A stretch of DNA of 64,000 nucleotides, from positions 310,001 to 374,000 of the forward strand of contig NZ_FZPH01000007.1 in NCBI RefSeq assembly GCF_900188485.1, given 5' to 3'. The notes beneath the pieces are model-generated. The model saw nothing but the letters and a program-made list of their open reading frames with translations, was not told where the DNA came from and made no database searches. Every line of letters begins with the position of its first letter. Position 1 is the stretch's first letter. The DNA comes from Asanoa hainanensis. Lineage in GTDB: Bacteria > Actinomycetota > Actinomycetes > Mycobacteriales > Micromonosporaceae. Below, piece by piece: positions 9,350 through 40,325 of this stretch. Both the position numbers and the translations under genes were made by a program.

Positions 9350-10927
9350 TTGACGGCCGCACCGCGTTGGTTGCCCGGTGAGCGTCAGACGGACTTCTCG
9401 CCCGAGGGCATCGTCGAGTGTGTACGGCGCTTTCGTGAGCCCGTTCACCTCGTGCGCGCCGAGGCCGGCTACGAGCCTGGGCTCGGGATCGGCGGACACG
9501 TCGGTGCGGACGGCCCGTTCGAGCTGCTCGGCACTCTGCCGCCGCTCTACCCCGAATGGCTCGGTGACCGGTCCTTCAATCGCACCCACGGCGTTCGGTT
9601 TCCGTACGTCGCGGGGGAGATGGCCAACGGCATCGCCACCGTCGACTCGGTCGTCGCGATGGCCGAAGCGCGGATGCTCGGCTTCTTCGGCGCCGCCGGG
9701 CTCGCGCTGCCCGTCGTCGAGCGCGCCGTCGGCGAGCTCGGCCGCCGGCTGAAGGGCCGCGACAACTGGGGCGTCAACCTGATCCACACGCCGGCCGCGC
9801 CCGAGATCGAAGACCGGCTGGTCGAGCTGCTGCTCAAAGCCGCCGTGCCCAAGGTCTCCGTGTCCGCCTACATGGACCTCACCCCCGCTGTCGTCCGATG
9901 CGCGGTCGCCGGGATGAGGCCGGAAGGGCGCGCCCGGCACCTGTTCGCGAAGGTGTCACGGCCCGAGGTCGCCGCCAAGTTTCTGTCGCCCGCGCCGCCC
10001 GAGATCCTGCGTGCGCTGGTCCAACGCGGGCAGATCACGCAGGCCGAGGCTGACCTGGCAGCGCGGGTTCCGCTTGCCGACGACATCACCGTCGAGGCTG
10101 ACAGCGGAGGGCACACCGACAACCGGCCCCTCGCGGTGGTCCTCCCCGCCATCCGGGCACTGCGGGACGAGCTGGTCCGCCGCCACGGCTACACCAGCCC
10201 CGTGCGGGTCGGTGCCGCGGGCGGGCTCGGTGACCCCGCCGGTGTCGCGGCCGCCTTCGCCGCCGGCGCCGCCTACGTCGTGACCGGCACCATCAATCAG
10301 CTCTCCCGCGAGGCGGGGCTCTCCGACGCCGCCAAGGCCCTGCTCGCCGAGGCGGACCTCGCCGACGTTGCCATGGCTCCGGCCGCCGACATGTTCGAGT
10401 ACGGCATCAAGGTCCAGGTGCTCAAGCGCGGCACCCTGTTCGCCTCCCGCGCCGGGCAGCTCTACGAGACCTACCTGGCGCACCAGTCCCTCGACGACAT
10501 CCCCGACGCGATCCGCGAGCGCATCGAGAAGGACATCCTGCGCGGCACCTTCGACGACTGCTGGGAGCAGACCCGGCAGTTCTGGCTCGACCGGGACCCC
10601 AGCGAGGCCGAGCGCGCCGAACGCGACCCGCGGCACCGCATGGCGTTGGTCTTCCGGTCCTATCTCGGCCTGTCGAGTCGGTGGGCCATCACCGGCGAGC
10701 CGACCCGGCAGAGCGACTACCAGATCTGGTGCGGTCCCGCGATCGGCGCCTTCAACCGTTGGGCGGCGGGCAGCCCGCTCGCCGACAAGACCCATCGCAC
10801 CGTCGTGCAGATCGCGCTCAACCTGCTCGAAGGTGCCGCCGCGGTGACGCGTGCGCATCAGCTTCGTTCCTACGGCGTCCCTGTGCCCGACGACGCCTTC
10901 GCACCGCGTCCGCGGCTGTTGTCCTGA
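9350..10927 (+). CDS. pfaD: PfaD-type FMN enoyl reductase of a PUFA-like synthase
   Basis: 525 residues. It is a TIM-barrel flavoprotein of the nitronate monooxygenase superfamily, PfaD subfamily. The barrel carries NWGVNLIHTP, the substrate-site EADSGGHTDNRPL and the phosphate-binding VRVGAAGGLGDP and YVVTGTINQL segments. The PfaD-specific C-terminal half follows (KRGTLFASRAGQLYETY, FRSYLGLSSRWAI). In PUFA and related secondary-lipid synthases this trans-acting enzyme reduces the enoyl-thioester on the synthase ACP. It starts with TTG at 9350 after a GGAGGGG site and ends 9 bases before the PfaA-like gene, so the two are co-translated. Confidence 0.95.
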   Translation: MTAAPRWLPGERQTDFSPEGIVECVRRFREPVHLVRAEAGYEPGLGIGGHVGADGPFELLGTLPPLYPEWLGDRSFNRTHGVRFPYVAGEMANGIATVDSVVAMAEARMLGFFGAAGLALPVVERAVGELGRRLKGRDNWGVNLIHTPAAPEIEDRLVELLLKAAVPKVSVSAYMDLTPAVVRCAVAGMRPEGRARHLFAKVSRPEVAAKFLSPAPPEILRALVQRGQITQAEADLAARVPLADDITVEADSGGHTDNRPLAVVLPAIRALRDELVRRHGYTSPVRVGAAGGLGDPAGVAAAFAAGAAYVVTGTINQLSREAGLSDAAKALLAEADLADVAMAPAADMFEYGIKVQVLKRGTLFASRAGQLYETYLAHQSLDDIPDAIRERIEKDILRGTFDDCWEQTRQFWLDRDPSEAERAERDPRHRMALVFRSYLGLSSRWAITGEPTRQSDYQIWCGPAIGAFNRWAAGSPLADKTHRTVVQIALNLLEGAAAVTRAHQLRSYGVPVPDDAFAPRPRLLS

Positions 10928-10936
10928 GGAGGACCG

Positions 10937-13900
10937 ATGGTGCCGATCGCCGTCGTCGGGATCGCCGCGCTGATGCCCGGCGCCCGGGACACGGCCGAGT
11001 TCTGGGACAACATCGTCACCGGCAAGGATCTGATCACCGATGTGCCACAAGGCCGCTGGGCCTCCGAGGACTTCTACGACCCCGATCCGGCGACGCCCGA
11101 CACGACGTACAGCCGCCGGGGTGCGTTCCTTCCCGAGATCGAGTTCGATCCGCTCGCCCACGGGCTGCCGCCGGCCACGCTCGAGGCCATCGACCCCGCG
11201 CAGCTGCTGGGCCTGACCGTCGCGGACGCCCTCCTCGGCGATCTCGACCGGAACCTGGCCGGCCCGCTCGACGGCGAACGCGTCAGCGTCATCCTCGGCA
11301 GCTCCACCCTCAGTCGCGTCGGCACGATGGACGCCCGCATCCAGCGTCCACTGTGGCTCAACGCGCTCCGGGAGCAGGGCATCGAGGAGAGCCAGGCGCA
11401 ACAGATCTGCGACCGGATCGCCGACCAGTACGTGCCCTGGCAGGAGGACTCGTTCCCCGGCCTACTCTCCAATGTGGTGGCTGGCCGGATCGCGAACCGC
11501 CTCGACCTGCACGGCACGAGCTGCACCGTCGACGCCGCCTGCGCGAGCTCCCTCGCGGCGGTCTCGGCCGCCGTGAACGAGCTCGCGCTGGGCACCGCCG
11601 ACCTGGTCGTCACCGGCGGCGTCGACGCGACCAACAACCCGCTGATGTACGTGTGCTTCAGCAAGACCCCGGCCCTCTCGCCGACCGGCGACGCGCGCCC
11701 GTTCTCCGCCGACGCCGACGGCACGCTACTCGGCGAGGGACTGGCGATGCTGGCGCTCAAGCGGCTGGACACCGCCGAACACGCCGGCGACAAGATCTAC
11801 GCCGTCATCCGCGGGCTGGGCACCTCGTCGGACGGGCGCGGTGGCGCCATCTACGCGCCGATGCCCGAAGGGCAGGTGCGGGCGCTGCGCCGCGCGTACG
11901 ACGCCGCCGGCTACGGCCCCGACACGGTCGAGCTCGTGGAGGCGCACGGCACCGCCACCCGCGCCGGCGACGCCGCCGAGTTCGAGGCGCTCCGGCACGT
12001 CTTCGCCGAGACCGGACGGCCCGACACCGGCTGGTGCGCCCTGGGCAGCGTCAAGTCCCAGATCGGGCACACCAAGGCCGCCGCCGGAGCCGCCGGGCTG
12101 ATCAAAGCCGTCCTCGCCCTGCACCGCCGCGTCCTCCCGCCGACCATCAAGGTGCGCGCGCCCAGCCCCGGCCTCGGCATCGAGGACAGCCCCTTCTACC
12201 TGAACATCGCCGCGCGTCCGTGGACCCGAGACCCGGAGCACCCGCGCCGGGCGTCCGTCTCGAGCTTCGGCTTCGGCGGCGCCAACTACCACGTCACCCT
12301 CGAAGAGCACCCCCGCTCCGAAGCCCGGGCCACCGTGGGCGTCGTCAGCGCGACCCAGGCAGGCGACCCGGGCCGGATCGCGTTCGTCTTCCCCGGGCAG
12401 GGATCGCAGTACGTCGGCATGGGCGCCGACATCACCATGGCCTTCCCCCAGGCGCGGGAGGTGTGGGACCGCGCGGCCGGCTTCCGGTTGCACGACGTCG
12501 TCTTCCCCCCACCCGTCTTCACCGACGACCAGCGCGCGGCCCAGCAACGGCGGCTCACCGACACGCGCTGGGCGCAGCCGGCCCTGGCCGCCCACAGCCT
12601 TTCGCTGCTCGCGCTGCTGCACGAGGCCGGCATCCGGCCCGACTGCGTGGCCGGCCACAGCCTCGGCGAACTCGTGGCCCTGCACGCCGCCGGCGCCATG
12701 GACGCCGAGAGCCTGCTGCGACTCGCCCAGCACCGGGGCGAGCTGCTGGCGGGGATCGACGCCGAGCCCGGCGCGATGCTGGCCGTGAGCGCCGACGCCG
12801 ACACCGTGCGGGCGGCCATCGTCGAGGACACCTGGATCGCGAACCTCAACGCACCACGCCAGACCGTCGTGTCGGGGACCGTCGCCGCCATCGAGGCACT
12901 GCACCAGCGGCTGAGCGCCGGCGGTGTCAGCGCGGTCCGCCTCAACGTGTCGGCCGCGTTCCACAGCCCCATGGCCCGCGCCGTCGAAGCACCGCTGCGC
13001 GCGTTCCTCGACAAGCTCGATCTGACCGTGCCGCAGATCGACGTCTACGGGAACACCGACGCGGCGATCTACGGCGACGACCTGAGGGGCACGCTCGCCC
13101 GACAGGTCGGCGCGCCGGTCAGGTTCCTCAACCAGATCGAGACGATGTACGCCGATGGCGTGCGCACGTTCATCGAGGTCGGCGCCGGATCCGCGCTGAC
13201 CGGCCTCATCGGACAGATCCTCGGCGACTGCCCGCACCTGGCCGTCAGCCTGGACCGGCGCGGCCGCGACGGTGTCTCCACCTGGCAGGAGGCCCTCGGC
13301 CGGCTCGCGGCGCACGGCGTGCCGATGCACCACGAGCGCACCGACGAGCCCGCCCAGCCGCCCGCGCCGGCCCGGATGACGGTGCGGGTCAACGGATCCG
13401 GCTACGTCCCACCCACCCCTGCCCGCCGGCCGCCGGCGCCCAACCTCGTGGAGGCCCCCGCCCTGATGACCGAGCCCCAACCGAGCGCCGAGTGGCTGGC
13501 CGCGGTGCAGGAGGTGCAGCGCCAGACCGCCGAGGCGCACATGCACTTCCAGCGCGTACTCGCCGAGTCACACCAGGCCTTCCTGCAACTGGCCGAGAAC
13601 ACCTTCGCCACGTTCGCCGGCCAACAACCACCACCGCAACCCGTGCCACGGCAGGCCCCGGCGCCGGCTCTCCTGCCACCGGCACCCGAACCCCAGCCGC
13701 TGCCGCCTCCGCCGGTCGTGCGACAGCCCGAGCCCCCGCCCGCGACCACTGAGCCGGTGAGCCTCGCCCTGCTGCTCTCCGTCGTCGCCGACAAGACCGG
13801 CTATCCGGTCGACATGCTCGACGGCGGCATGGACCTGGCCGCCGACCTCGGCATCGACTCGATCAAGAAGGTCGAGATCTTCGCCGCGGTACGCGAGCGC

Positions 13901-16087
13901 ACCCACGGCCTGCCACCGACCGACTCGCCGCAGATGGCCGACCTCTTCCAGGCCCGCACGCTCGACGAGGTCATCCGCCTGGCGACCGCTGCGGACCCCG
14001 CGACCCCGTCGGTTGTGGTCCGCCGATTACAGGTCCAGCCGGTCCCCGCACCGGCTTCCGGACAGGAGATGGCGGGCGTACGCCAGGGACCGATCGCGGT
14101 CGTCGACGACGGCAGCGGACTGGCCGCCGCCGTCGTCGCCCGCCTGACGACGCACGCGATCACCGCCACCGTCGAGCACGCGCCACCGCCCGACGCGTGG
14201 GGCGTGATCCTGCTCGGCGGAGACCACCACGCCGCCTTCCGCGCGGCCCGCACGGTGGCGGCCGCCATGGGCCAGCGCGGCGGCGTCTTCGTGACCGTCC
14301 AGGACACCGGCGGCACCTTCGGCCTGTCGGATCCCGACCCCCGTCGCGGCGGCCTCGCGGCGTTGGCGCGGACGGCCGCGCAGGAGTGGCCGTCGGCCGC
14401 GGTCAAGGCGATCGACTGCCAGCGCGGCGACCGGCCCGCAGACGCCGTGGCCGCGGCGCTCGTCGACGAGCTGCTGACCGGCGGCCCGACGCTCGACGTC
14501 GGCCTGCGCGCCGACGGCACCCGCTGGACGCTCGCCGAGCGCGACGCGCCAGCCGAGGAGCAGCTGACCATCACCCCGGAGTCGGTCCTCGTCGTCTCCG
14601 GGGGCGCCCGTGGCATCACCGCCGCAGGGCTGCGGGCGCTGGTAACAGTGGCCAAGCCACGCCTGCTCCTGCTCGGCCGCACCGCGCTCGCCGCCGAACC
14701 CGGCTACCTGGCCGGCGCCCGCGACGAGCCGTCGGTGACCCGCCTGCTGGCCGAGCGTGAGCCCGGCAGGCCGGCAGAGCTGGCAGCCAGGGCCCGCACG
14801 ATCCTGGCCCGCCGCGAGGTGCGCGCGACCCTGGGCGACCTCGAACGGGCCGGAGCGACGGTGCGCTACGTGGCGCTCGACATCACGGACCGCACGGCGC
14901 TGAGCCGTGAGCTCGACCGTGTTCGACGCGAGTGGGGACCGATCACCGGAATCGTCCACGGTGCCGGCGTGCTCGCCGACAAGCGCATCGTCGACAAGAC
15001 CGACAACGACTTCGACCGCGTCTACGCGACGAAGGTGAACGGGCTCGAAGCCCTGCTCGCGGCCACGGTGGACGACCCGCTCGACGTGCTCGTCCTCTTC
15101 TCCTCCGTGGCCGCCCGCTACGGCAACGCCGGGCAGAGCGACTACGCGATGGCCAACGAGGTCCTCAACCACATCGCCGGTGTCGAACAGCGGCGGCGAC
15201 CGTCCTGCCGGGTCCGCGCCATCGGCTGGGGACCGTGGGACGCGGGCATGGTCACCACCGCCCACGCCGCGCACTTCACGAGCCTCGGCATACCGCTGAT
15301 TCCGCTCGACCAGGGTGCGAAGGCCTTCGTCACCGAGTTGGGCACCACCGACGGCACCGCAACCGTACTGATCACGGCCGGCCCGCACACCGAGGCGGTC
15401 AACGCGACGACCCACCGCTTCCTGGCCGACCACGCTCCCGCGGGCACCCCCGTACTCCCGCTCGCGATGGCCGTCGAATGGCTCTCGACCGGATCCCTGG
15501 CCGACGTGCGCGTGCTGCACCGCGTCGATCTCCCCGACCTCAACGGGCGGTTCACCATCGACGGGACCGATGACCTACGGCTCACCTCGACCGCGGGCCG
15601 CATCCATTACTCGGCACGCCGGATCCCGGGCGCGCCGGCCGGACGGTGGGCCACCCCCGACGGCCTCGGCGACCCGATCACCGAGCCCTACGCCTCACCC
15701 GCGTTGTTCCACGGCCCCGGGTTCCAGGTCCTGCGGCGGGTGCGCCTGTCCCCGCACGGCGCCGAGGCGGAGGTTGTCGGCGCGCGGGTGATGGGTTGGC
15801 CCGGCCGCTGGCGCACGGACCCGGCCGCGATCGACGGCGCACTGCAGGCGGCGGTCCTGTGGGCCGCGCACACGACCGGCGACGCCACCTTGCCGATGGG
15901 CCTCGACCAGGTTCACGTCCACCGCGCGGGAGCCGCCCCGGGAACGCTGCGCTGCATCGTGCGCGCGGGCTCCCGGACCACCGACCAGGCCCGCTGCGAC
16001 GTCGCCCTGCTCGACGAGGACGGCAGGGTCCGCACCGAACTGCTCGGCGTGCGCCTCGTCCGCCGGCCCGACCTGGCACCGGCGTGA
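10937..16087 (+). CDS. pfaA: PfaA-like iterative type I synthase: KS-AT-ACP-KR-DH
   Basis: 1716 residues. Domains in order: KS (about 1-440; C202 in DAACASS, H337 in EAHGTAT, H378 in IGHTKAA); AT (about 480-790; FPGQGSQ, S575 in GHSLGEL); a Pro-rich linker (about 800-935); one ACP (about 945-1025, S975 in IDSIKK, the PfaA-type motif); KR (about 1090-1490; SGGARGIT, catalytic Y1403); and a polyketide-type double-hotdog DH (about 1495-1715; H1499 in HxxxGxxxxP and DGALQ). It should extend a malonyl-derived chain repeatedly. PUFA-making PfaA proteins usually carry several tandem ACPs; this one has only one, as in glycolipid-type (HglE-like) secondary lipid synthases. The stop overlaps the GTG of the next gene. 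No phosphopantetheinyl transferase lies in the window. Confidence 0.93.
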
Positions 16088-19000
16088 GCACCTTCGCACC
16101 GGTCGCGATCGTCGGCCGCGGCTGCGTGCTGCCCGGAGCACACAACCCCGACCAGTTCTGGGCCAACATCGTCTCGGCGCGCGTCAGCATGGGTCTCGTC
16201 CGAGGTTTCGAGACCGGCGACAGCGCGTACGACCCGGCCCTGCGATGGGTGCTGCACGCGGGCCGGGCCGCTCTGCGCGAGGCCGGCGACCGCGCCCGCC
16301 CGGAACGCAGCGGCCTCGTCCTCGGCAACCTCGGCTACCCGAGCCGGAGCCTGGTCGCGTACGCCGAGCGCGTGTGGCGGGCCGACCACCCTGGCGACCC
16401 ACACGGCCGGTTCTCGTCGGGCCTCTGGGCCCACCAGGCCGCCAGCGCGCTGAACCTCAAAGGCGGCTCGCTCGCCCTCGACGCCGCCTGCGCCTCCGCC
16501 CTCTACGCCATCAAGATCGCCTGCGATCGGCTGCACGACGGCACCGCCGACCTCATGCTCGCCGGTGCGGTCAGCGGCTGCGACGGGCAGATCATCAACT
16601 CGGGGTTCGCGGCCCTCGGCGCGCTGAGCCCGTCCGGCCGCAGCCGGCCCTTCCATCGCGGCGCCGACGGACTCGTCCCCGCCGAAGGAACGGCCATCGT
16701 GGCGCTGATGCGCCTAGGCGATGCGGTGGCCCAGCGCGTCCCTGTCCTCGGCGTCATCCGCGGCATCGGCCTCTCGAACGACGGCCGCACCGGCGGCTTC
16801 CTCGCACCGGCCGAAGAAGGCCAGATCCGGGCCATGCGCGCCGCGTACGCGCAAGCCGGCTTCGGTCCGGAAACCGTGGAGCTGCTGGAGTGCCACGCCA
16901 CGGGCACACCGCTGGGCGACGCAGTCGAAGCCCGCTCGACGGCCCGTGTCTTCCAAGCCCGACCAGAGCCGTTGCCCGTAGGCTCGGCCAAGTCCAATGT
17001 GGGCCATCTGCTGACCGCATCGGGCGCGGCCGGTCTGCTCAAGCTCCTCGCCGCCATCCACGACGGGACGCTCCCCGCGACGGCCGGCGCCGACGACCCG
17101 ATCGACGAGCTCCGCGACGGCCCGCTGCGACTGCTGGCGGCAAAAGAGACCTGGGCAGGACCGCGCCGGTGCGCGGCGATCAGCGCGTTCGGCTTCGGCG
17201 GCAACAACGCCCACCTGATCGTCGAGGCGTACGACGGCGCGCCGAAGAGCTTCAGCGCTGCCGCCCCGCCAGCCGAGATCGCCATCGTCGCCGTCAGCGG
17301 CCGCGTCGGCGACGACCCGCTCGAGGACGCTGTCCTGCGCGGCTGGATCCCACGCCCGACCACGAACGACATCGAGGTCGGGCTCGACGGCCTGCGCTAC
17401 CCACCGCGCGACCTGCGCGAGACGCTGGGCCAGCAGCTACTCGTCCTGGAGGTCGCCCGGGACGCCGTCGAAGGGATCGACCTCCCGCCGGAGCGCACGT
17501 CCGTCCTGGTCGGGATGGGCTGCGACCCCGAGACGGCCCGGGTGCGCAGTTTCGGTCCACCGCTGACCGCCTCCCGCGTCCTGGGCGCCATGGCCAACAT
17601 CGCGGCCAACCGCATCGGCGGGCAGCTCGGCCTGTCCGGACCGGGCTTCGCGGTCTTCGCCGAGGAGGCGTCCGGCGTCGTAGGGCTGGAGTTGGCCGCC
17701 CGCGCGCTGCGGGCCGGCGAGATCGACGCGGCCCTCGTCGGCGCCGTCGACCTCTCCGACGAACCGGTGCACCGCGCTGCCATCGCGGAGCTGGACCCGC
17801 TCGCCGAACCCGCCGACGCGGCCGTGGTCCTCGTGCTCAAACGCCTCGACGACGCCCGCCGCGACGGCGACCGGGTCCTCGCGGTCCTCGATCGCACCGA
17901 CCGGCCGGCCGACGCCTTTCCCACGGGCCTGTTCGGTGCGCCACACGCCGCCCGCGGCCTGCTCGACGTCGCAGCGGCGGCCATCGCCCTCCACCACCGC
18001 GCCTGGCCCGTCGCCCGACAGCGCGCGCAGCCCCGCCTGGGCGGGACCACGGCCGACGTCAGCACGCCCGTGCTGGGTGCTGCACCTGTCCGCGTCGGCC
18101 TCCGCGCCGCGGATGCCGCCGCCTGGGCCACCGAGCCGATCACCGCGCTGCACGTCTACTCGGGCGCGAACCGTGCCGAGGCATTGGCGGCGGCCGCCGA
18201 TGGACGAGAGAGCGACACCGGCCCGGCCCGCCTTGCCGTCGCGGCCCGCGACCCCGCGCACCTCGCCGAGCAACTGATGGCGGCGCGTGGCTGGCTCGAC
18301 GGCACCGCCCTGCGGCCGCCCGGGGTCGCCTTCCGCGAGCGGCCGATCGGCGGCGAGACGGCGTTCGTCTACACCAAGGGCTCGGCCTTCTACCCGGGCA
18401 TGGGTGCCGACGTCGCGCTCGCGTTCGCGCCGCTGGTCGCCGGCATGGACGAGCACGCACAGGTCTCGTGGCTCTACGAGGGGCGCGACGTACCCGACGA
18501 CTCCCTGGACCAGATCCTCGCCGTCGGATTCGTCGCCCGCCTGCACACCAGGATCACCCGCGAGGTGCTGGGCGTCGCACCGCACGCCGCGATCGGCTAC
18601 TCCTCCGGCGAGTCGGCGGCCCTCGTCTCGCTCGGCGTCTGGAACGACGTGACCGCGATGTCCGCCGACGCCCGAGCCAGCGGCCTGTTCACCCACGACC
18701 TGGGCGGCGACCTGCGCGCCGTGCGCCGCTTCTGGGAGCGGCACGGCATCGCGGGGGAGCGCTGGGCGGGCTATCTCCTGTCGGCCGATCCCGAGCAGGT
18801 CCGGGCGATGCTCGCCGACCAACCAGCGGTGCACCTGACAGCGGTCTGCGCCCCCGGCACCTGTGTGGTCGCCGGCGAGGAGCGGGCGTGCGCGGCCTTC
18901 GTCGAGCGCTTCGACCCGGCGTCCCGCATCCGGATCCACTACGACCTGGCGGCGCACGCCCCGGAGCTGGCCGAGGTCCGCGACCGCTGGCACGCGCTGC

Positions 19001-21966: not shown

Positions 21967-23678
21967 AGCCCGGGGTCGGAACCGTCGAAGAGGCACACGC
22001 TGGCCACCTCGAGACCATGCTGGCGTACGTGGACGGGCAGGCCCTGGACCGCCAGGAGACCTTCCACGAGTGGGAGGCGGAGCTTCCGCCGGACGCCCGC
22101 GCGGCGTTCGCCGGCCTCAAGGACTCGGCCGCGATCCGGGCGAGCATCCTGGAGGCGTTCCCCGGCAACACTGTCCACAATGTCAGCGGCATGAACGAGG
22201 TCTACGTCTCGAACATGGGCGCCAAGGGCTCCGACCGCGCCTTTCTCCAGCAGCACATCGACGGCCCGTTCGGCCTGCTGCCGTTCGTGACGCTCCTGCG
22301 CTGCCTGGTCGTCGTGCGGGGGAACGACCGCGTCACGACGGTCTTCGCGGTCCAGAAGGCCCGCAACACCCTGCGGACGGGCGAGTTCTGCTGGCTCGAC
22401 TACAACCGCGACATCCACCACATCGTCAAGAGCGGCGACCCGGACGACCTCCTCGCCGACAGCCGCATCTGCCTCAAGGTGCACTACGCGGTCGTACCCC
22501 GCTGGCTCGCCCCGGTCCGTGCGCTGTTCGCGGGGTGGAACGAGACCTACAACCGGCGGGCGCGCGAGCTGTTCGTCGCGAGCAAGAACCCGCAGTCGGC
22601 GATCGGCAAGCTCCTCGGCGCCGTCGTCAACGCCGGCACGTTCCTCTATCCGCTGTTCTTCCAGTACGTCGGGGTCCTGAACCTGCTCGTCCTGCTGCTG
22701 TTCTGGGGCGTGACCGCCGGGCACCCGACCGAGCGGGTCTACCTCTTCAGCTTCGTCCACTACGCCCTCTACGCCGTCGCCCACCTGTTCCGCACGGTCG
22801 AGCCCGGCCGGTTCGCCCGCGACGCGACCCTGTTCCAACTCGTGGCGCTAGGGACCCTGTTCTGGCAGTACGGGCAGGCGGGGTTCGACGCACCGTCGCT
22901 GGCGGTCGCGGCCCTCGGTTTCGGGCTCTCCGGGCTCGCGTTCCTGCGGCTGGGCTCCGACCGCACCTACTTCGGCGCGGAGCTCGGCGTCGTACCACCC
23001 GGCAAGGTCTCGGGCTTCCCGTACGGCGTCATCCCGCACCCCATGATCGTCGGAAAGCTGGTCGGCTTCGCCGGGCTGGCGCTGCACGCCCCCTTCCGCG
23101 CGGCGTGGTGGCCGCTGCTGCTGGCCCACGTGGCGTGCTACGTGGTCGTCCTGTGCCAGGAGGTGGCGGGCCGGCACCTCGGAGACACCTACCGGTTCGA
23201 GGAGACGTACCGCGACTTCGCCCGCTTCCACCAGAAGACCGGCAACGTCGTCGTGCACCTGTTCTCGACGGGCATCGGCCTGCTCGGTGTCTTCGGCCTC
23301 GTCGGCGCCGCGGCCCTCGCCCTCGGCGCGACACCCGCCGTGGTCGTGGCGTTCGTCGCGGTCCTCTACGCGTACTTCTGCGCCTACACGGCACCGGACC
23401 AGACCGCCCTGGCATCGATCCTGTACGTGGCCGTCGTGCTCGCCGCCTACCTCGCCCTCCCGACGACGCTCGGCTGGCTCGTCGCCGCCGGCCTGCTCGT
23501 GCTCGGCACGGTGGCCCAGGACGTGTCCCACATCGTGTTCAGGGAGCGGACGTATATGAGCTCGTACCAACGCGGGCGCGGCGCTGTCGGGCTGTTCGTG
23601 CTGCACACCGTGCTGCTCGTGCCCCTGCTCTGCCGGGCGGCCTTCTTCCGGACGGCCGTCACAGCCCGAGCCGCTTGA
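21963..23678 (+). CDS. Membrane protein with PEMT-like methyltransferase segment
   Basis: 571 residues from ATG 21963, overlapping the previous stop (ATGA), so it is translationally coupled to the synthase. The first 210 residues are soluble. They hold an HxD (H98, D100), later histidines (H152/H153, H174) and R168, loosely like a 2-oxoglutarate/Fe oxygenase, but this is tentative. From about 220 the protein is largely membrane-embedded. Residues about 337-375 (TYFGAELGV, then GFPYGVIPHPMIVGK) match the phosphatidylethanolamine N-methyltransferase (PEMT) pattern of YFG, FPF and NPMY-G, and a nearby EE could complete a SAM site. A later FHQKTGNVVVHLF patch resembles the DUF962/Mpo1 family. I read it as a head-group or acyl-chain modifying enzyme, exact reaction unknown. 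Its 3' end overlaps the convergent hydrolase gene by 20 bases. Confidence 0.75.
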   Translation: MKPGVGTVEEAHAGHLETMLAYVDGQALDRQETFHEWEAELPPDARAAFAGLKDSAAIRASILEAFPGNTVHNVSGMNEVYVSNMGAKGSDRAFLQQHIDGPFGLLPFVTLLRCLVVVRGNDRVTTVFAVQKARNTLRTGEFCWLDYNRDIHHIVKSGDPDDLLADSRICLKVHYAVVPRWLAPVRALFAGWNETYNRRARELFVASKNPQSAIGKLLGAVVNAGTFLYPLFFQYVGVLNLLVLLLFWGVTAGHPTERVYLFSFVHYALYAVAHLFRTVEPGRFARDATLFQLVALGTLFWQYGQAGFDAPSLAVAALGFGLSGLAFLRLGSDRTYFGAELGVVPPGKVSGFPYGVIPHPMIVGKLVGFAGLALHAPFRAAWWPLLLAHVACYVVVLCQEVAGRHLGDTYRFEETYRDFARFHQKTGNVVVHLFSTGIGLLGVFGLVGAAALALGATPAVVVAFVAVLYAYFCAYTAPDQTALASILYVAVVLAAYLALPTTLGWLVAAGLLVLGTVAQDVSHIVFRERTYMSSYQRGRGAVGLFVLHTVLLVPLLCRAAFFRTAVTARAA

Positions 23679-24462
23679 CCGCGTCCACGATCTCCATCGG
23701 TCGCTCGTAGGCGATCGCGTGACCGGTGTCCGCCAGCACCGTCAGCCGCGCCTGCGGGAGGCGGGCGGCCAGCACGCGCGAGTTGCGCGGCGCCAGCATC
23801 CGGTCCTCGGCGCCGACGATCACCTCGACCGGCACGCGGACGGCCCCGAGCCGGCGATCGGTCCGGTGGAACGACATCGCCAACGCCTGCAGAAGCGAGT
23901 TGAACCGCGAGTACGGCTCGGTCCGCTGGATCTGCCGGAGCGGGGCCAGCAGGCCGTGCGCGCGGTCGCCGTCGTGCACGAGCAGCCGGTCGCACATCGT
24001 CCACACCCGGACGTCGTTCGAGATCGTGGCCGCGGCGGTCAGCGGCAGCGAGCGTAGAAAGGCCGGCGACACGTCGCCGCGCGCCGCGCTGGCGGACAGC
24101 ACGAGCCCGGCGACCCGGCGCGGGTGCCGGAGCGCGAGATGCTGGGCGACCATCCCGCCCATCGACTCGCCGACCACGACCGCGGGCGCGTCCCCGGCGC
24201 CGTCCCGGATGACGACCGCCGCGTCGTCGGCCAGCGTCGCCAACGTGTACGGCCGACGCGGACGCCCCGACTCGCCCGTGCCCCGGTGGTCGACGAGCAC
24301 GACGCGGTAGGGGAGGGGACCGACACGGCCGAGCCAGGGGAGCCAGCTGCTGCCGGACCGGCCGTACCCGGCCAACAGCACCAGCGTGGGGTCGCCGCGC
24401 TCCCCGGCGACCTGGTACGACAGCCGCACCCCGGCGCGCTCCACCCAGTGCCGGGAGGTCAT
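23659..24462 (-). CDS. Alpha/beta hydrolase
   Basis: 267 residues, one alpha/beta-hydrolase fold. The nucleophile serine is in GESMGGM (about residue 97), the acid in GAEDRM and the histidine in DTGHAI. The oxyanion-loop region is LLAGYGRSG. It could act as an external thioesterase, esterase or lipase releasing or editing the lipid made by the neighbouring synthase; the sequence alone cannot say which. It is the last gene of a leftward run with ATGA-type coupling: its ATG at 24462 overlaps the stop of the methyltransferase gene. Confidence 0.9.
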   Translation of the reverse strand: MTSRHWVERAGVRLSYQVAGERGDPTLVLLAGYGRSGSSWLPWLGRVGPLPYRVVLVDHRGTGESGRPRRPYTLATLADDAAVVIRDGAGDAPAVVVGESMGGMVAQHLALRHPRRVAGLVLSASAARGDVSPAFLRSLPLTAAATISNDVRVWTMCDRLLVHDGDRAHGLLAPLRQIQRTEPYSRFNSLLQALAMSFHRTDRRLGAVRVPVEVIVGAEDRMLAPRNSRVLAARLPQARLTVLADTGHAIAYERPMEIVDAVKRLGL

Positions 24463-25049
24463 GCCGGGAACCGCGCGACGACGTAGTAGCGCAGCGGGCC
24501 GTGTTCGACGTGGGTCGCGCCGTGGCGGTGCAGCAGGTCGTCCGGCACGGCCTCGACATGGAAGGCGGACAGGAACGGGCGCATCGCCCGGGCCGCGAGG
24601 TCCGAGAAGTCGACCACCCACAGCTCGCCGCCGGGCGCGAGGTGCCGGCGCGCGTTGTCGATCGCCCGGTCCTTGTCCACGAACATCGACAGGCAGTACG
24701 ACATGAGGATGCGCTGCGGTGGCACACCAAGGACGGCACCGATGTCACCGTCCTCGGCGAAACCAGGGGAGATCCGGGCCCAGGGGCACCGGCGTGCGGC
24801 GTGCGCGCGCATGACGTCGCTCGCCTCCAGCCCGCCGAGCGCCGCGTCCGGCCGTCGGCGGTGCAGCCGGGCCAGGTTGCGCCCGGTGCCTGGGCCGATC
24901 TCCACGAGCGTGGCCCAGTCCCCGGCCAGCAGGCGGTCGAGCACGCCGTCGCGGCCGAACAGGAAGTACTTCCGGGACACGTCGTAGACGCGATGGGTGG
25001 CCCGGTAGTACCGGTCGAGGAACGCGCGGTGGTCCGCCTCCCAGGTCAT
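24459..25049 (-). CDS. btaB: BtaB-like SAM-dependent N-methyltransferase
   Basis: 196 residues, class I methyltransferase fold, with motif I VEIGPGTGRNL (about 42-52), motif II LGGLEASDVM and a post-I SYCLSMFVD segment. The N-terminal DRYYRATHRVYDVSRKYFL stretch is like BtaB, which methylates the amine of diacylglyceryl-homoserine three times to make the betaine lipid DGTS. The gene directly follows a BtaA-type gene and overlaps it by 4 bases, as in bacterial btaAB pairs, which supports the assignment. Whether the acceptor here is DGTS precursor or a product of the adjacent lipid synthase is open. It is soluble, with no signal or TM segment. Confidence 0.8.
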   Translation of the reverse strand: MTWEADHRAFLDRYYRATHRVYDVSRKYFLFGRDGVLDRLLAGDWATLVEIGPGTGRNLARLHRRRPDAALGGLEASDVMRAHAARRCPWARISPGFAEDGDIGAVLGVPPQRILMSYCLSMFVDKDRAIDNARRHLAPGGELWVVDFSDLAARAMRPFLSAFHVEAVPDDLLHRHGATHVEHGPLRYYVVARFPA

Positions 25050-26182
25050 GCGGCGCCGACGACCCGGTAGACGTCGACGCGTCCGTACAGCCGCGTCCGC
25101 TCCTGCTCGCTCGCGAGGGTCGACGCCGGCTCGACGCGCTCGTAGAGCCCCGACAACCCGACGCGGTCGACGACGCACGCGTCCTCCACACTGCGCGTCA
25201 GGACGACCGCGCCCTCCCCGCCCACGCGGGCGATCCGGTGCAGCAGCTCCCGCTGGGCGGAGGCGGGCAGCCAGTCCAGCACGTCGCACAGGGAGAAGTG
25301 CGACCACTGTCCCGGCGTCGCACCGGCGAGCATCCGCTGCAGCGAGGCGTGATGAAAACCGACCCGCGTCGGTGCCACGAGCGACTGCTTGTGGCTCTGC
25401 TCCCGCAGATAGGGCGGCACCGCGTCGGGATGGTCGTGGTTGAACTCGCCGGTCAGGCACGACCAGACGAACCAGTTCGTCTCCAGGTCCGTCCGCACCA
25501 ATCGTTCGAAGTGCGCGGTGACGACGTCCATCATGGACGCTGCCCGGTTCGCCCGCAGGTTGCGCCGCCGTTGCGCGAAGTTGACGCCCACGCCGAGCTG
25601 GAACAGCGGCGTGTTGACCAGGACGCGCATCGGCCACCATCGCCGCAGCGACGCGAAGATCGGGTCGAAGCGCGCCAGCCGCTCGGCGGGCGGGAGCGCC
25701 TGCACGGTCCGCAGGAAGTCCGCGTCGACACCCACCTTCTGGCGCAGCAACCGTTGGAAGGTGCCGACCAGACCCTCCGCGTACAGGTTGTGCCGGAACC
25801 GGTGGTGGTTCGTGCTCCAGTAACGCCCGACCCAGGACGGGAGGGCCGCCATGAGCGGCCGGAGCACCCCCGCGGGATCGTCGTGTCGTCCCCGGCCGAG
25901 CAGCTGGTAGAACTCGGCGTGGGAGGTCATCCGGCGGGCAGCGGCGACCTTTAGGGCGGCCAGGGCGAGGTGGTGCCGGTTGGTGTCGACGGCGTCGATC
26001 CGGGCGGGATGGGCGGCCAGCAGACCGGCCACGCCGCAGCCGGCGCCGCTGACCGCCAGCACGCGCGCACGGGAGTCGAGGTCCAGGACGCGGTTGTCCA
26101 CCTCCGAGTCCTCGTAGAGCAACGAGAAGGTGAAGACGTGATGGAAGGTCGCGGCGAACGCGCGATCGGCTAGGTCCGGCAC
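25046..26182 (-). CDS. btaA: BtaA-like (DUF3419) 3-amino-3-carboxypropyl transferase
   Basis: 378 residues from GTG 26182, which overlaps the end of the upstream FAAL gene by 13 bases. Early residues FSLLYEDSEVDNRVL match the WEDPEVD block of DUF3419/BtaA. A SAM-site AVSGAGCGVAGLL is followed by the family's AVDTNRHHLALAALK. Known BtaA transfers the 3-amino-3-carboxypropyl group of SAM to the free hydroxyl of diacylglycerol, the first step of betaine lipid synthesis. The gene sits between a FAAL-ACP-C protein and a BtaB-like methyltransferase, so the four leftward genes look like one operon. The true acceptor is not shown by sequence. Confidence 0.83.
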   Translation of the reverse strand: MPDLADRAFAATFHHVFTFSLLYEDSEVDNRVLDLDSRARVLAVSGAGCGVAGLLAAHPARIDAVDTNRHHLALAALKVAAARRMTSHAEFYQLLGRGRHDDPAGVLRPLMAALPSWVGRYWSTNHHRFRHNLYAEGLVGTFQRLLRQKVGVDADFLRTVQALPPAERLARFDPIFASLRRWWPMRVLVNTPLFQLGVGVNFAQRRRNLRANRAASMMDVVTAHFERLVRTDLETNWFVWSCLTGEFNHDHPDAVPPYLREQSHKQSLVAPTRVGFHHASLQRMLAGATPGQWSHFSLCDVLDWLPASAQRELLHRIARVGGEGAVVLTRSVEDACVVDRVGLSGLYERVEPASTLASEQERTRLYGRVDVYRVVGAA

Positions 26183-29100
26183 TGGCGCAGCTCGTCGCCG
26201 AACCGGGCCATCCACTCGTCGATCTCCCCGCCGGACCACCCCAGATGCCGCGGGGAGTAGTACCAGTCGACGCGCGTCGTGCCCTCGACGACGGAGCACT
26301 CGACGTACAGCGGCGGCTGTTTGACACCGCCCTCGGGGTCCCACATGTCGCCGAGGTCGTCCGCGCGCAGCGAGAAGAGGCCACTCCGGCTCCGCGTCGG
26401 CACCTCGCCCTGGAAGTTGAACCAGAGCATCGGGGCCGCGGCGCTGACGTCCGCGTAGCCCAGGTACCTGAGCGGGTCGAACGACATGCCCGCCGAGGGG
26501 ACCTCCGCGAGTCGTCGGCTGACCGCGGTCAGCGTCTCCGCCGGGCTTTGCGTCGAGCTGTCGTCGAAGGCGAGCGGGAAGGTGCAGTGCAGGTCGCCGA
26601 CGGTCCGCGAGACGTCGAGACCGTGCACCGCCGACTGCCGGCCGGAGCTGGAGAGCTTGACGGCGAGCCGGTCGCCGTCCCATTGGCGCTGGGCGGTCCG
26701 CACCAACGCGGCGAGCAGGGTCGTCGCGACCGGTGCGCGGCGGCCGTTCGTGGTGATGCCGCGGAGTGCGCGCGTCTCGTCGGGGCCGAGGTGCTGGTGG
26801 GCGCTGGTCAGGTCCTTCATCGTGACGGCCTCATGCGTGCCGGCGGCGTCGAGCTGCCGATGCCAGAAGTCCAGGTCGGCGATGGCGGCGCCGCGCGCGA
26901 AGTCGTTCATCCAGCGCGTGAACGCCGCGAAGGGCGCCGAGGTCCGCGCGATGTGGAGGCGTTCACCGCGCTCGTCCTGCTGGCAGAGCCGGTCCAGGTC
27001 GTCGACCAGGATGCCCAGGGTGGCGGCGTCCATGACGAGGTGGTTCACGGTGATGAAGAGCTTTTGCCGGTCGCCGGTCTCGATCAGCAGGAGGCGCAGC
27101 ACCGGGCCGTGCTCGACGCTGAGCCGGCGATGCTGGTCGTCGAGCGACGGCTCGGTGGTGGTCTCGACGGCGAAGCTGCCTTCGACGTCGCCGTAGCGCT
27201 GGGTGAAGCGTCCCTCGTCCCTGCGGAACCGCAGACGCAGCGCGTCGTGCCGGGCGACCAGTGCGTAGGCGGCGCGGTGCAGCCGCTCCGGGGTGAGCCG
27301 GCGGTGCACGTCGAGCATGACCGCGCGGTTCCACCAGTTCCATTGCCCGAGCTGGAGGGCCTGGGTCTGGGCGGCGCTGAAGGGGATCTCGCCCGGATCC
27401 GGCGCGGCCGGCCTCTCGCTCGGCTCGGCTGGGGACTGCGCGAACTGCCGCACGACGAGCGTCGCCAAGTCCCGCAGGGTGGCGCCGTCGGTGACCTCGG
27501 ACGGGGGTACGACCGCCCCGGTCCGGTCCTCGACACGTGCGGCGAGGTCCATCGTCCCGAGCGAGTCGAGGCCGAGGTCGCGGAGGGAGACATCGACGGG
27601 CACCTCGCCGGGGTACTGGAGGAGCGCCGCGAGGTCCGCCTGGAGCAGCCGGATGACGTATTCGGCGCCGCTGCCCTGGACCTCCGCTCTCGGCTTCTCC
27701 TTTTCCGCGAGCGGCTGGAGCGACCCGCTGGTCCAGAGCTCCTTGCACTCACCGCGTCGCAGCTTGCCGCTGGTCGTCTTCGGGAGGGAGTCGGCCCGCA
27801 GGAGCAGGACCTCGTGGCACTGCACGCCGCAGTGGGCGGCCACCGCGGCCCGGATCGCCGCCGCCGCGCGGTCCACCGGCACGGGCTCCGTGCCGGCGAG
27901 GGCCTTCTTCCGTAGCTCGGCCGCCACCACGACCCGCTCGACGCCGTCGACCTGGACGCCGAACGCGACCGCGTTGCCCGGCCGCAGGATCGGGTCGGCG
28001 GCGACCACCGCCGCCTCCAGGTCCTGCGGATGGATGTTGCGGCCGCCGACGATGATGAGGTCCTTGAGGCGGCCGCAGACGAACACCTCGCCGTCGTCGC
28101 CGACGACCCCGAGGTCACCGGTGCGCAGGAACCGCCGCTCGTCGCCGGTCGCCAGGCGGGCCGCGAAGACGGCCGCGTTCTCCTCGTCGGTCCGTCCCCA
28201 GTAGCCGGTCGACACACTGGGGCTGGAGACCCAGAGCTCGCCGACGACGTGGGGTGGCTGCGCCAGGTGGGTGGCCGGGTCGACGGCGACCACCGTCACG
28301 CCGAGCTCGGCGTCGGGGACGCCACTGCCGACGAGCGTCACCGCGGGAGCGTCGGCCGCCGGCGGGACGATGACGCCGTCGCGGTCGAGCACGGCCCGGT
28401 CGCCCCGCAAGAGCGTCGGCCGCTTGCCGACCTGCGCGCTGACGAAGAGCACGGCTTCGGCCATGCCGTACACGTTGCAGAACGATGCCGGGTCGAAGCG
28501 CATCGGCGCGAGCGCGGCCTCGACGCGGTCCATCGTGGACGCCAGCATGGGTTCGCCGCCCTGGAGCGTGGCCCGTAGCGACGAGAGGTCGAACGCGTCG
28601 CCGTCGCTCAGCCCGCGCAGCACGTACTCGTAGCCGAAGTTCGGTCCGGCGATGTGGGTGCCGCGATAGCGGTCGATCGCCTCCAGCCAGAGCCGCGGCG
28701 CGGCCAGGAACGTGAGGGGGGAGAACGCGACGCAGCGGGCACCGGTGTACATGGCGTTGAGGATGCCGCCGGCCAGCCCCATGTCGTGGAAGAGCGGCAC
28801 CCACCCGACGAGCACGGACGCGCTGTCGACCCGGGTGTTGCGGGCGATGAGCTCGAGGTTGTGCACGAGGTTCCGGTGCCGCAGCACGACACCCTTGGGC
28901 GCGGACGTCGAGCCGGACGTGTACTGCAGGTAGACGATGTCGTCGGGGCCGAACCGCTCTGCCGCGCGGGCGAGCGTTTCCGCGGCCGTCGCCGGGTCGG
29001 CCCGTTTGGCGCGGTTCGACACCAGCCAGGTCAGCTTGGGCCAGCCCGCGCGACCGCGCAGGCGGTTGGTCACCGACGTGACCGTGGCGAGCGCGCGGTA

Positions 29101-29469
29101 TTTCGCGTGCGTGAGCGCGAATCGGGCGCCACTGTCCCGGGCGACGTGCCGGAGCTTCGGCAGCTCCCGGTCGAGGTGCCGCGGGTCGGGGCTCGCGACC
29201 GGCACCGCGATCGCGCCGAGCAGCACGCACCCGAAGAATCCGGCGACGAAGTCCAGCCCGTCGTCCGGCGGGAAGATCAGCAGGACGCGATCGCCACGCG
29301 AGACCCCGGCCGCCTGGAGAAGGTCGGCGGTCCCGGCCGCGCGCCGCACGACGTCTTCGTAGTCGGCGGAGTCCGCCTCCGCACCGCGCCGGTCGAGGAA
29401 GGTGTAGAGCGGCGCCCGAGGAGTGACGCGCAGGCGTTCGACCATCGTCGTGAGGAGGCTCGCGGTCAT
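26170..29469 (-). CDS. FAAL-ACP-condensation domain protein
   Basis: 1099 residues. A fatty acyl-AMP ligase domain (about 1-580) has YTSGSTSAPKG near 185, GWVPLFHDMGLAGG, YGMAEA and the FAAL-typical GGRNIHPQDLE. An ACP follows (about 605-680, S636 in LGLDSLG), then an NRPS-type condensation domain (about 695-1099). Its HHxxxDG motif reads NHLVMDA, keeping the catalytic histidine H810 with asparagine at 809. FAALs activate free fatty acids as acyl-adenylates and load them onto ACP without CoA; a following C domain normally transfers the acyl group to an amine or hydroxyl. It is the first gene of the leftward operon. A TATGAT box 8 bases before the ATG may give a nearly leaderless message. Confidence 0.93.
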   Translation of the reverse strand: MTASLLTTMVERLRVTPRAPLYTFLDRRGAEADSADYEDVVRRAAGTADLLQAAGVSRGDRVLLIFPPDDGLDFVAGFFGCVLLGAIAVPVASPDPRHLDRELPKLRHVARDSGARFALTHAKYRALATVTSVTNRLRGRAGWPKLTWLVSNRAKRADPATAAETLARAAERFGPDDIVYLQYTSGSTSAPKGVVLRHRNLVHNLELIARNTRVDSASVLVGWVPLFHDMGLAGGILNAMYTGARCVAFSPLTFLAAPRLWLEAIDRYRGTHIAGPNFGYEYVLRGLSDGDAFDLSSLRATLQGGEPMLASTMDRVEAALAPMRFDPASFCNVYGMAEAVLFVSAQVGKRPTLLRGDRAVLDRDGVIVPPAADAPAVTLVGSGVPDAELGVTVVAVDPATHLAQPPHVVGELWVSSPSVSTGYWGRTDEENAAVFAARLATGDERRFLRTGDLGVVGDDGEVFVCGRLKDLIIVGGRNIHPQDLEAAVVAADPILRPGNAVAFGVQVDGVERVVVAAELRKKALAGTEPVPVDRAAAAIRAAVAAHCGVQCHEVLLLRADSLPKTTSGKLRRGECKELWTSGSLQPLAEKEKPRAEVQGSGAEYVIRLLQADLAALLQYPGEVPVDVSLRDLGLDSLGTMDLAARVEDRTGAVVPPSEVTDGATLRDLATLVVRQFAQSPAEPSERPAAPDPGEIPFSAAQTQALQLGQWNWWNRAVMLDVHRRLTPERLHRAAYALVARHDALRLRFRRDEGRFTQRYGDVEGSFAVETTTEPSLDDQHRRLSVEHGPVLRLLLIETGDRQKLFITVNHLVMDAATLGILVDDLDRLCQQDERGERLHIARTSAPFAAFTRWMNDFARGAAIADLDFWHRQLDAAGTHEAVTMKDLTSAHQHLGPDETRALRGITTNGRRAPVATTLLAALVRTAQRQWDGDRLAVKLSSSGRQSAVHGLDVSRTVGDLHCTFPLAFDDSSTQSPAETLTAVSRRLAEVPSAGMSFDPLRYLGYADVSAAAPMLWFNFQGEVPTRSRSGLFSLRADDLGDMWDPEGGVKQPPLYVECSVVEGTTRVDWYYSPRHLGWSGGEIDEWMARFGDELRQCRT

Positions 29470-32500: not shown

Positions 32501-33189
32501 AGGTCTGGGATGTCGACGGTCGTCCGGTTCGCACCATCACCAGTCATGGCGAGGCGATCTCCTCGGTGGCGTTCGCGCCCGACGGGCGCCTGGCCACCGG
32601 GTCCGTCGACCACGCGGTCAAGATTTGGGAACCCGACGGTCGTCTGCTCCGCACCATCGCCGCGCACCCGCCCGCCGACGGCCGCCGTCGTCTCTTTGCC
32701 GGCTTCTCAGTGGCGTTCGCGCCCGACGGGTGCCTCGCCACCGCATCCCACGACGGCAAGGTCGAAATCTGGAATCGTGACGGCAGCCTGGCCCATACTC
32801 TCGCCGGCCATGACGAGATCGTTACCGGCGTGGCATTCGCGTCCGACGGGCGCGTCGCCACCTGCTCCGACGAGAGCACGGTCAAGATCTGGCACCGCGA
32901 CGGTCAACTTCTCCACACCATTGCTGGCCCCGAGCTGGACGTCACCTCGTTGGCGTTCGCGTCCGACGGCCGTCTCGCCACCGGTTCCAACGACGCGCGG
33001 ACCAGGATCCATTTCTGGCCAGTCGACGGAAGCGCCTTGGCGGACCTGGCATCGGCACAGGACGTGACGCTGACGCCGCGACAACGCGCCGAGTTGGGCT
33101 TGCCCGCCGAGGCGCCACGCGCGCACCACATCCCAGCGGACACGGTGGTCAACTCGGAGCTCAGACGGAGAAGGGCCCCCGCACCGTGA
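29590..33189 (+). CDS. nSTAND1 NTPase with two TM segments and 14 WD40 blades
   Basis: 1199 residues. Two hydrophobic segments lie at about 13-28 and 44-62. The nSTAND1-type NPYPGLTPYTRDREAVFAGR entry follows, then Walker A GPSGSGKSS (about 125-133), Walker B LLIVVDQLEEL (about 209-219) and a helical region to about 560. Fourteen WD40 repeats of about 40 residues run from about 565 to 1150, each with a VAFAPDGRLATGS-type core and an IW ending. Fourteen fits two seven-bladed propellers. Blades 8 and 12 carry insertions. STAND ATPases oligomerise when their sensor binds a signal; here the propellers are the likely sensor. No effector domain or toxin gene is adjacent. The 3' end overlaps the convergent SDR gene by 29 bases. 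Confidence 0.9.
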   Translation: MAARRRATGAFDYLAFVLGAGVGLFTNLATARADRWPGWLQPLSTYSAVLGGLLVFGVTASWWWQRRGPLRPAPRWTDLGGNPYPGLTPYTRDREAVFAGRGQEIRDLTDRVLSADAPGLRFVPIVGPSGSGKSSLVLAGLLPRLDRRWKVLPDFAPQGDALAQLESIVGGVDLADVAKRVAVEPSLAADSPLMRPLLRRLSDLRRPADRLLIVVDQLEELVSLQTREELDRFMGLMSRLVDLDRRLHVVATLRSEYIGAFQQGAGSELFTAPFMVNAMTVRQLRQVVTEPADETDTTFEDGLVEDLLTEVGAGDALPLLSYFLSDLYDRRGPDQHITRADYEAAGTVGGIITRRAETAVANSGHPLRRCLEVLAGFVSYAGPEPTRHSVRAADLDDAGAQVVQAFLAQRLITSDSRDGEVVFALGHEALLRRWPDLRDHIEAHAEQLRKATELAALAAAWDAAGKDPEYLIDGRRLDDTTRSIQLTALLPPAREYLSAAVEHAAAGRERRANVIARQALATIAIDQPRALAMARAAYTELKPTPLAAYALQAALPATEIPIWDDLDAVLSVAFVSDLRIATGSRNTVRIWDANGRLLHRFAGRSVSAIAVAPDGSLATGSFDKTVRIWDSEGRLLDTLTGHADEVHAVAFAPDGRLATGSVDHTVKIWHRDRSPQYTFGGQAGPVRSVAFAPDGRLASGSADCTVWIWGLHGELLRVLADHTDEVSSVAFAPDGRLAAGSADGTVRVWDLDGEPLHTLSGHADDVGSVAFAPDGRLATGSDDHTVKLWDRDGRLLDTISGHQGAVTSVAFASDGRLATGSYDHTLRIWAPDGRELRVFTGHPPAEGEVATRTRRPPRAGQIAVIKSSSFVVAVAFAADGRLAISDRDTVRIWDVDGSLLHTLTGQSATVRSMAFAPGGRLATGSANRTVEIWGLDGRLVRRITGHRGVISSVAFAPDGRLATGSEDRTVKVWDVDGRPVRTITSHGEAISSVAFAPDGRLATGSVDHAVKIWEPDGRLLRTIAAHPPADGRRRLFAGFSVAFAPDGCLATASHDGKVEIWNRDGSLAHTLAGHDEIVTGVAFASDGRVATCSDESTVKIWHRDGQLLHTIAGPELDVTSLAFASDGRLATGSNDARTRIHFWPVDGSALADLASAQDVTLTPRQRAELGLPAEAPRAHHIPADTVVNSELRRRRAPAP
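31264..33048 (+). repeat. Fourteen WD40-coding repeats
   Basis: Repeats of about 120 bases are highly alike at DNA level, especially around the GTGGCGTTCGCGCCCGACGG block, inside the STAND gene. The similarity suggests recent expansion or gene conversion among blades. Confidence 0.85.
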
Positions 33190-34705: not shown

Positions 34706-34720
34706 CCACCGTCGGTCAGA
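34701..34720. terminator. Short bidirectional hairpin between convergent stops
   Basis: TCTGACC / GGTCAGA form a 7-bp stem with a 6-nt loop spanning the stops of the GNAT and pnkp genes. Confidence 0.4.
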
Positions 34721-40219: not shown

Positions 40220-40325
40220 GCGGCTGACTCCCCTGGTCGCGGGTCCCGTCACCGAGACTGCCACGTTGCCGGCCGCCGTGCAGCGGATGTCAGCCCCGGA
40301 GGGCCTCCGGATTAAGTGCGACAAA

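Follow-up and report, generated by a model that had tools for sequence, protein, structure and literature searches.

Among the closest described systems are the Pfa1/Pfa2/Pfa3 polyunsaturated fatty acid (PUFA) synthases of the myxobacteria Aetherobacter and Minicystis, for which the accessible part of the description (PMC8436480) gives an enoyl reductase-first gene order, a Pfa2 of the order KS-MAT-ACP-KR-PS-DH and a Pfa3 of the order KS-CLF-AT-DH-DH' ending with an AGPAT domain. In a stretch of 64,000 nucleotides of Asanoa hainanensis (contig NZ_FZPH01000007.1, positions 310,001-374,000, forward strand; referred to as the window), a cluster of eight genes was found to share this gene order and these domain orders. 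In contrast to the myxobacterial genes, no AGPAT domain was detected in its pfaC, one acyl carrier protein (ACP) match was present, and the synthase was linked to genes for a fatty acyl-AMP ligase (FAAL)-ACP-condensation (C) protein and for BtaA-like and BtaB-like proteins. The nearest secondary lipid synthase type of Shulse and Allen 2011 (PMC3098273, in its accessible portion) is type L, found in S. coelicolor, which has the fused pfaB/pfaC and the pfaD at the 5' end in common with the cluster; however, the AT lies after the dehydratases in type L and before them here. The accessible text of that paper does not contain the terms betaine or AMP-. Hybrid polyketide synthase (PKS)-nonribosomal peptide synthetase (NRPS)-PUFA synthase clusters of the chitinimine type (PMC13291983, accessible text), of which zeamine is another case, likewise use a PUFA-type synthase for a specialised lipid, but the Asanoa cluster lacks PKS and peptide modules, and the text accessible for PMC13291983 contains none of the words betaine, FAAL, Asanoa, Actinoplanes, homoserine and DUF3419. 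On the betaine lipid side, the diacylglyceryl trimethylhomoserine (DGTS) enzymes BtaA and BtaB are likewise a DUF3419 protein and a small S-adenosylmethionine (SAM) methyltransferase encoded by adjacent, overlapping genes, and BtaA moves an aminocarboxypropyl group in betaine lipid synthesis (PMC10491745, accessible part). In contrast to the usual pair, the pair in the cluster forms a distinct branch with many conserved positions changed and has other neighbours.

The set looks like a lipid pathway not yet described that is present in a few related bacteria. The eight genes were intact and tightly spaced, and spanned positions 9350-29469 of the window as follows:

9350..10927, plus strand: pfaD, PfaD-family enoyl reductase, 525 amino acids, TTG start (TIGR02814, PF21607, PF03060)
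10937..16087, plus strand: pfaA, KS-MAT-ACP(one)-KR-PS-DH, 1716 amino acids (TIGR02813, Pfam domains)
16084..21966, plus strand: pfaC/B, KS-CLF-AT-DH-DH, 1960 amino acids, GTG start (PF00109, PF02801, PF00698, four FabA stretches)
21963..23678, plus strand: mem, PEMT-type membrane protein, 571 amino acids (PF04191)
23659..24462, minus strand: alpha/beta hydrolase, possible thioesterase or acyltransferase, 267 amino acids (PF00561, 97.4 bits)
24459..25049, minus strand: BtaB-like SAM methyltransferase, 196 amino acids (PF13489/PF08242)
25046..26182, minus strand: BtaA-like DUF3419 protein, putative aminocarboxypropyl transferase, 378 amino acids (PF11899)
26170..29469, minus strand: FAAL-ACP-C protein, 1099 amino acids (PF00501, PF00550, PF00668)

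The genes named by an earlier reading made from the window's letters (the sequence-only reading), and the tail-to-tail meeting of the two strands that it described, were all present, with open frames and assigned families. The pfaA/pfaC and pfaC/mem junctions overlap as GTGA and ATGA, respectively, and the 3' ends of mem and the hydrolase gene overlap tail to tail by 20 bases. On the minus strand, the GTG-started btaA-like gene overlaps the FAAL-ACP-C stop by 13 bases, followed by two 4-base overlaps (btaA/btaB and btaB/hydrolase). Third-position G+C was 0.89-0.96 in all eight frames, including the btaB frame that the first mechanical gene pick had left out. An Rfam scan of the window at gathering scores gave no match.

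For comparison with relatives, pfaD/A/C were taken as unit 1, and the FAAL-ACP-C gene, btaA, btaB, the hydrolase gene and mem as unit 2. Unit 2 was found in six genomes: that of the window, A. ishikariensis (G399), A. iriomotensis (G398), Paractinoplanes rishiriensis (G836), and two further genomes, G397 and G851. The pfa genes were linked to unit 2 in all four genomes found with both, in two arrangements, one in the three Asanoa-type genomes and the other in P. rishiriensis. The gene order of A. ishikariensis is that of the window; in A. iriomotensis, contigs break inside or beside the genes, and one contig joins the pfaC end, mem, the hydrolase gene and btaB. The pfaC/mem ATGA overlap was present in all three Asanoa-type genomes having both units. 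In P. rishiriensis the pfa operon lies on the FAAL side, head to head with the FAAL gene, and mem is still tail to tail with the hydrolase gene. As these genes were found together in other genomes too, their proximity is not due to chance; when relatives were checked for an unrelated placement of the two gene sets, none occurred. The hydrolase was 74.8-78.0% identical across five orthologues. The ratio of nonsynonymous to synonymous substitution (dN/dS), calculated by a simple counting method on these high G+C genomes, was 0.135-0.365 for mem, btaA and btaB in all pairs of five genomes, G397 included, which fits function of the three genes in all five but gives no date for the loss of pfa from G397.

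The BtaA-like gene was rare. It was found in 4 of 6 genomes of the genus. In the family, 7 of 354 genomes gave a match at E ≤ 1e-10, six with identities of 77-100% and one with 25%. In the order, matches at E ≤ 0.001 came from 5 of 397 genomes, where only the window's own was close, one was 28% identical and three were partial and weak. PfaD was commoner, present in 3 of 6 genomes of the genus and, at E ≤ 1e-20, in 53 of the 397 from the order; the best PfaD outside the cluster-bearing group was 66% identical among the genomes of the order. A wide BtaA search of the genome_contigs collection (84,980 species) gave 181 relatives. In the best 80 of these, pfa genes lay within the fetched stretch (at most 10 kb on each side) in two (L069 and L072), L070 ended at a contig edge, and L071 had no pfa; the remaining 76 loci, some of them short, contained pfa genes in none and a BtaB-like gene in 71. 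L071, from an uncultured Sandaracinus metagenome-assembled genome (MAG), holds the nearest other BtaA/BtaB pair (44% and 52% identical, respectively). It was not counted as a second version of the cluster, because no FAAL, pfa or mem match was found within 14 kb of the pair, the MAG has no mem, and its pfaA/pfaC pieces are on other contigs (long pieces 43-52% identical).

The synthase assignment was supported by the curated NCBIfam models TIGR02814 for PfaD (617.5 bits; cut-off 449.25) and TIGR02813 for PfaA (1125.6 bits; cut-off 1010.1). A single ACP-pattern match and a single PP-binding stretch were found in pfaA, and one ACP match was also found in the pfaA of three other clusters. The MAT motif GHSLG was kept in the pfaA of four clusters. 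PfaC contains a KS, a CLF (assigned by its position between KS and AT) and FabA-type dehydratases, with the AT motif GYSSG and two HFxxDPxMPG dehydratase sites. Where read (pfaA in four clusters and pfaC in three), the KS, MAT, AT and two FabA-type dehydratase sites were kept. An AT motif with tyrosine, as in GYSSG, is given for PfaB in the accessible part of PMC12895367, where PfaB is called a terminal acyltransferase. No AGPAT-type family was matched in pfaC/B at E up to 0.1 in the Pfam scan. As AGPAT was not found in this otherwise myxobacterial Pfa1/2/3 layout, the FAAL-ACP-C protein may replace the transfer step.

The FAAL-ACP-C protein matched PF00501, PF00668 and PF00550 with 206.9, 98.7 and 44.6 bits, respectively. 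Among the first 15 solved chains matched by its AMP-binding part, six were named AMP or adenylate ligases, fatty acyl-AMP ligases among them (5hm3, 8hd4, 3pbk, 5ey9, 8hcz and 3t5a); others of the 15 were named polyketide synthase or acyl-CoA synthase by their depositors. The ACP site GLDSLG and the C-domain motif NHLVxD(A/G) were present in all five aligned rows, including the window and G397. The catalytic motif of condensation domains is HHxxxDG; in all five rows its second histidine and aspartate were kept, and the first histidine was replaced by asparagine. The FAAL-ACP-C layout is that of lipopeptide initiation, where it is followed by A-PCP. A FAAL-like gene (37% identical over residues 1-584) was also observed in G163 (L047, 2984-4687), approximately 1 kb from another actinobacterial pfaC.

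The BtaA-like protein matched PF11899 (DUF3419) with 177.7 bits against a Pfam cut-off of 28.2, and was 22-27% identical to 49 other BtaA rows in the alignment. The motifs ED..VD..L, GC, DxN, LxDxxDW, RS and R...Y were retained, and NTCW, N.LDY and others were lost; in the BtaB-like protein the motif E-x-GxGTG was retained. In a tree of 46 BtaA rows, which included half of the other relatives, the cluster rows and the Sandaracinus sequence formed a separate branch with 100/100 support. The Sandaracinus branch was long, and its BtaA shares many of the residues changed in the cluster BtaA. The G851 row held 179 amino acids, and its placement was not used; its btaA frame was open up to residue 369. 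The same tree grouped the G397 btaA (L042:18887-19999) with that of P. rishiriensis inside the Asanoa rows (support 94/89, not starred), hinting at transfer between genera. A structure model of BtaA had a mean predicted local distance difference test (pLDDT) score of 90.6 (54 sequences); its best solved folds were SAM-dependent methyltransferases, with weak scores and none at E ≤ 0.001, and no PDB relatives were found by sequence at E up to 1. The model suggests that the BtaA-like enzyme likely uses SAM; a homoserine-betaine-like head group is plausible. In another family of the order, G004 (L057, 7084-10352) was observed to carry an ordinary-type btaA/btaB pair (27% and 31% identical, respectively) with an AMP-ligase-like gene (26% to FAAL) after it.

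The sequence-only reading had listed the PEMT-like protein as coupled to the pfa genes on the same strand. Across genomes, mem goes not with the pfa operon but with the rest of unit 2, in all six cases. When 396 genomes of the phylum were scanned, mem was found at E ≤ 1e-10 in one, that of the window. mem matched the PEMT family PF04191 with 34.4 bits (cut-off 25). Its C-terminal part matched the Mpo1 family PF06127 weakly (12.7 and 15.4 bits in single scans, under the cut-off of 24); genome scans with PF06127 gave 25.3 in G397, with neighbouring hits, and 17.9 in A. ishikariensis, and no match at E ≤ 0.05 in the window's genome or A. iriomotensis. In six rows, the window included, H98-x-D100 and H174 were invariant in the N-terminal part, and H423, H432, H523 and E528 in the C-terminal part. 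The N-terminal part had no Pfam match at E up to 10, the full-length protein matched no NCBIfam family, and a profile search of the PDB gave no relative at E up to 10. An AlphaFold model from three close sequences was discarded (mean pLDDT 36.6). Judged from its sequence, mem is more than a PEMT, and H98-x-D100...H174 could, as a pattern, be an Fe(II) site.

Taken together, these findings are read, tentatively and at somewhat less than even confidence, as one specialised-lipid pathway built from the two units. This is the best reading of the data because the linkage survives rearrangement and the synthase is without its usual transfer domain. From these data we infer the substrates, the order of the steps and the product as follows. 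Unit 1, a PUFA-type iterative synthase, would make a long, probably polyunsaturated acyl chain, with the PfaB-type AT, the hydrolase or some other means releasing it as the free acid. The FAAL would adenylate the free acid and load the attached ACP, and the C domain would pass the acyl group on to a small-molecule or lipid acceptor at its hydroxyl or amine, with FAAL-ACP-C standing in for the AGPAT domain that terminates the similar myxobacterial Pfa3. The BtaA-like enzyme would move a 3-amino-3-carboxypropyl group from SAM to the same acceptor, and the BtaB-like enzyme would N-methylate it to give a homoserine-betaine-like head. Finally, mem would methylate the lipid and perhaps oxidise or alpha-shorten it. 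In this pathway, the PUFA-type synthase most likely supplies unit 2 with a special acyl chain. That a single molecule comes from both units is possible but doubtful: a PUFA-type chain joined by a free FAAL-ACP-C protein, not by AGPAT, to a new aminocarboxypropyl/betaine head made by the divergent BtaA/BtaB, and then modified by a fused membrane methyltransferase/oxygenase.

Several results weigh against the joint pathway. Chief among these is the occurrence of unit 2 by itself in two of the six genomes, G397 and G851, in which no pfaD was found in the whole genome (E ≤ 1e-20), and a PUFA-type chain is not needed there. The presence of unit 2 in these two genomes means that the synthase is not essential to it, and that unit 2 forms its own module. 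Directly before mem, G397 retains 65 bases from the 3' end of pfaC (92% identity to A. ishikariensis); this relic indicates that the synthase was deleted there, and an ancestral absence of pfa from G397 was rejected. In G851 there was no pfa match in 60 kb around the module and no pfaC relic directly upstream of mem. The chemistry is also restrictive, since the C domain cannot acylate a nitrogen if BtaB trimethylates that same nitrogen. Of the 159 BtaA columns shared by at least 92% of 75 other relatives, themselves not tested enzymes, 51 were kept in all four cluster rows, and of the 63 columns conserved in 71 other BtaB-like rows, 29 were kept in all three cluster rows (L071 was set aside from both counts, and L116, which was too short, was dropped from BtaA). 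The group moved by the cluster BtaA and its acceptor may differ from those of its usual relatives. Moreover, the PfaB model TIGR02816 gave 79.6 bits, under its cut-off of 144.3, the NCBIfam fatty acyl-AMP ligase models matched strongly yet under their cut-offs, and mem is missing from the Sandaracinus MAG, whose BtaA is the nearest outside the cluster. Of the new acylated aminocarboxypropyl lipid that the sequence-only reading had put forward, what stands is a conserved cluster for lipids in which a PUFA-type synthase, FAAL-ACP-C and BtaA/BtaB-like enzymes come together; a requirement for the synthase does not, and a DGTS-like product can be inferred but not asserted because BtaA and BtaB form a divergent branch with many conserved residues lost. 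The synthase may only change which chain is used, or the two units may be separate.

Two independent lipid loci, with unit 2 making a lipid from ordinary fatty acids, the pfa genes making a free or membrane PUFA, and a shared regulator or mere co-travel keeping them together, would account for an intact unit 2 without pfaD in G397 and G851 and for the separate, divergent strands of the units in P. rishiriensis. We consider this unlikely; against it stand the linkage in four of four genomes with both units in two arrangements, the pfaC/mem ATGA overlap in the three Asanoa-type genomes with both, and the failure to detect an AGPAT domain to place the product on a glycerolipid. A lipoamino acid route is quite unlikely. 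Here, FAAL-ACP-C would N-acylate an aminocarboxypropylated acceptor or a free amino acid, the BtaB-like and PEMT-like proteins would methylate oxygen or another atom, and no quaternary betaine would be formed. The lipopeptide-initiation layout minus the following A-PCP, the second histidine and aspartate kept in the C domain and the 29 of 63 BtaB columns retained all agree with it, but BtaA and BtaB are still paired, also in the Sandaracinus MAG and in 71 of the 76 other loci, and this pairing fits sequential action on one head group. Ordinary DGTS with PUFA chains, in which FAAL-ACP-C would act as a lyso-lipid acyltransferase, is very improbable: although BtaA and BtaB homologues lie side by side and AGPAT was not found in pfaC, the cluster BtaA falls in its separate branch with 51 of the 159 conserved columns kept in its four rows, and other BtaA genes in the order (G004 and G911) have no pfa or mem alongside, the btaB and AMP-ligase-like gene of G004 notwithstanding.

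No description of a PUFA synthase and BtaA-type genes in one cluster was found among the matches listed for the open full-text literature, as seen from titles and the beginnings of abstracts, with most subscription papers lying outside; one of the papers listed, PMC9969633, is a study of a soil lipidome. If the joint pathway is true, it would be, as far as the literature searched goes, the first specialised lipid to recruit betaine-lipid-type enzymes to a PUFA synthase, and would bring together PUFA-type chain building and SAM-derived betaine heads, which are known as separate lipid chemistries. Two deposited strains, A. ishikariensis DSM 44718 and P. rishiriensis NBRC 108556, carry this small, defined set of genes, which occurs naturally both with and without the synthase and includes a divergent BtaA/BtaB branch and, in mem, a multi-part membrane protein.

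None of the relatives read has a close homologue of tetR, MFS, WD40 or Pnkp/Hen1 next to its cluster. Weak large-family matches in the flanks were left out, namely an MFS-type gene (30%) beside FAAL in G397, SDR genes (31-33%) in G397 and P. rishiriensis, and, in G851, a partial MFS match (38% over 79 residues) at a distance of 16 kb from FAAL. Beside the FAAL gene, positions 29590-33189 encode a 1199-amino acid protein with nSTAND1 and WD40 repeats, which matched a section of one HEAT-ARM defence model (E 2e-34; best over positions 86-241 of the model's 1972). It is followed at 34716-38665 by a Pnkp-type kinase/phosphatase/ligase adjoining a Hen1-type protein (PF16542 and PF12623), a bacterial RNA repair pair; the methyltransferase part of the Hen1-type protein matched the mads_2 defence model (E 5.5e-13). 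In A. ishikariensis (L040), a 91% homologue of the amine-oxidase type gene at 38699-40324 lies approximately 0.5 kb from the FAAL gene, so that approximately 9 kb (WD40, Pnkp and Hen1) may have been inserted in the window or lost in A. ishikariensis. At the left edge of the window, positions 3-2072 encode an AMP-binding and PP-binding (A-PCP type) protein, perhaps of another cluster.

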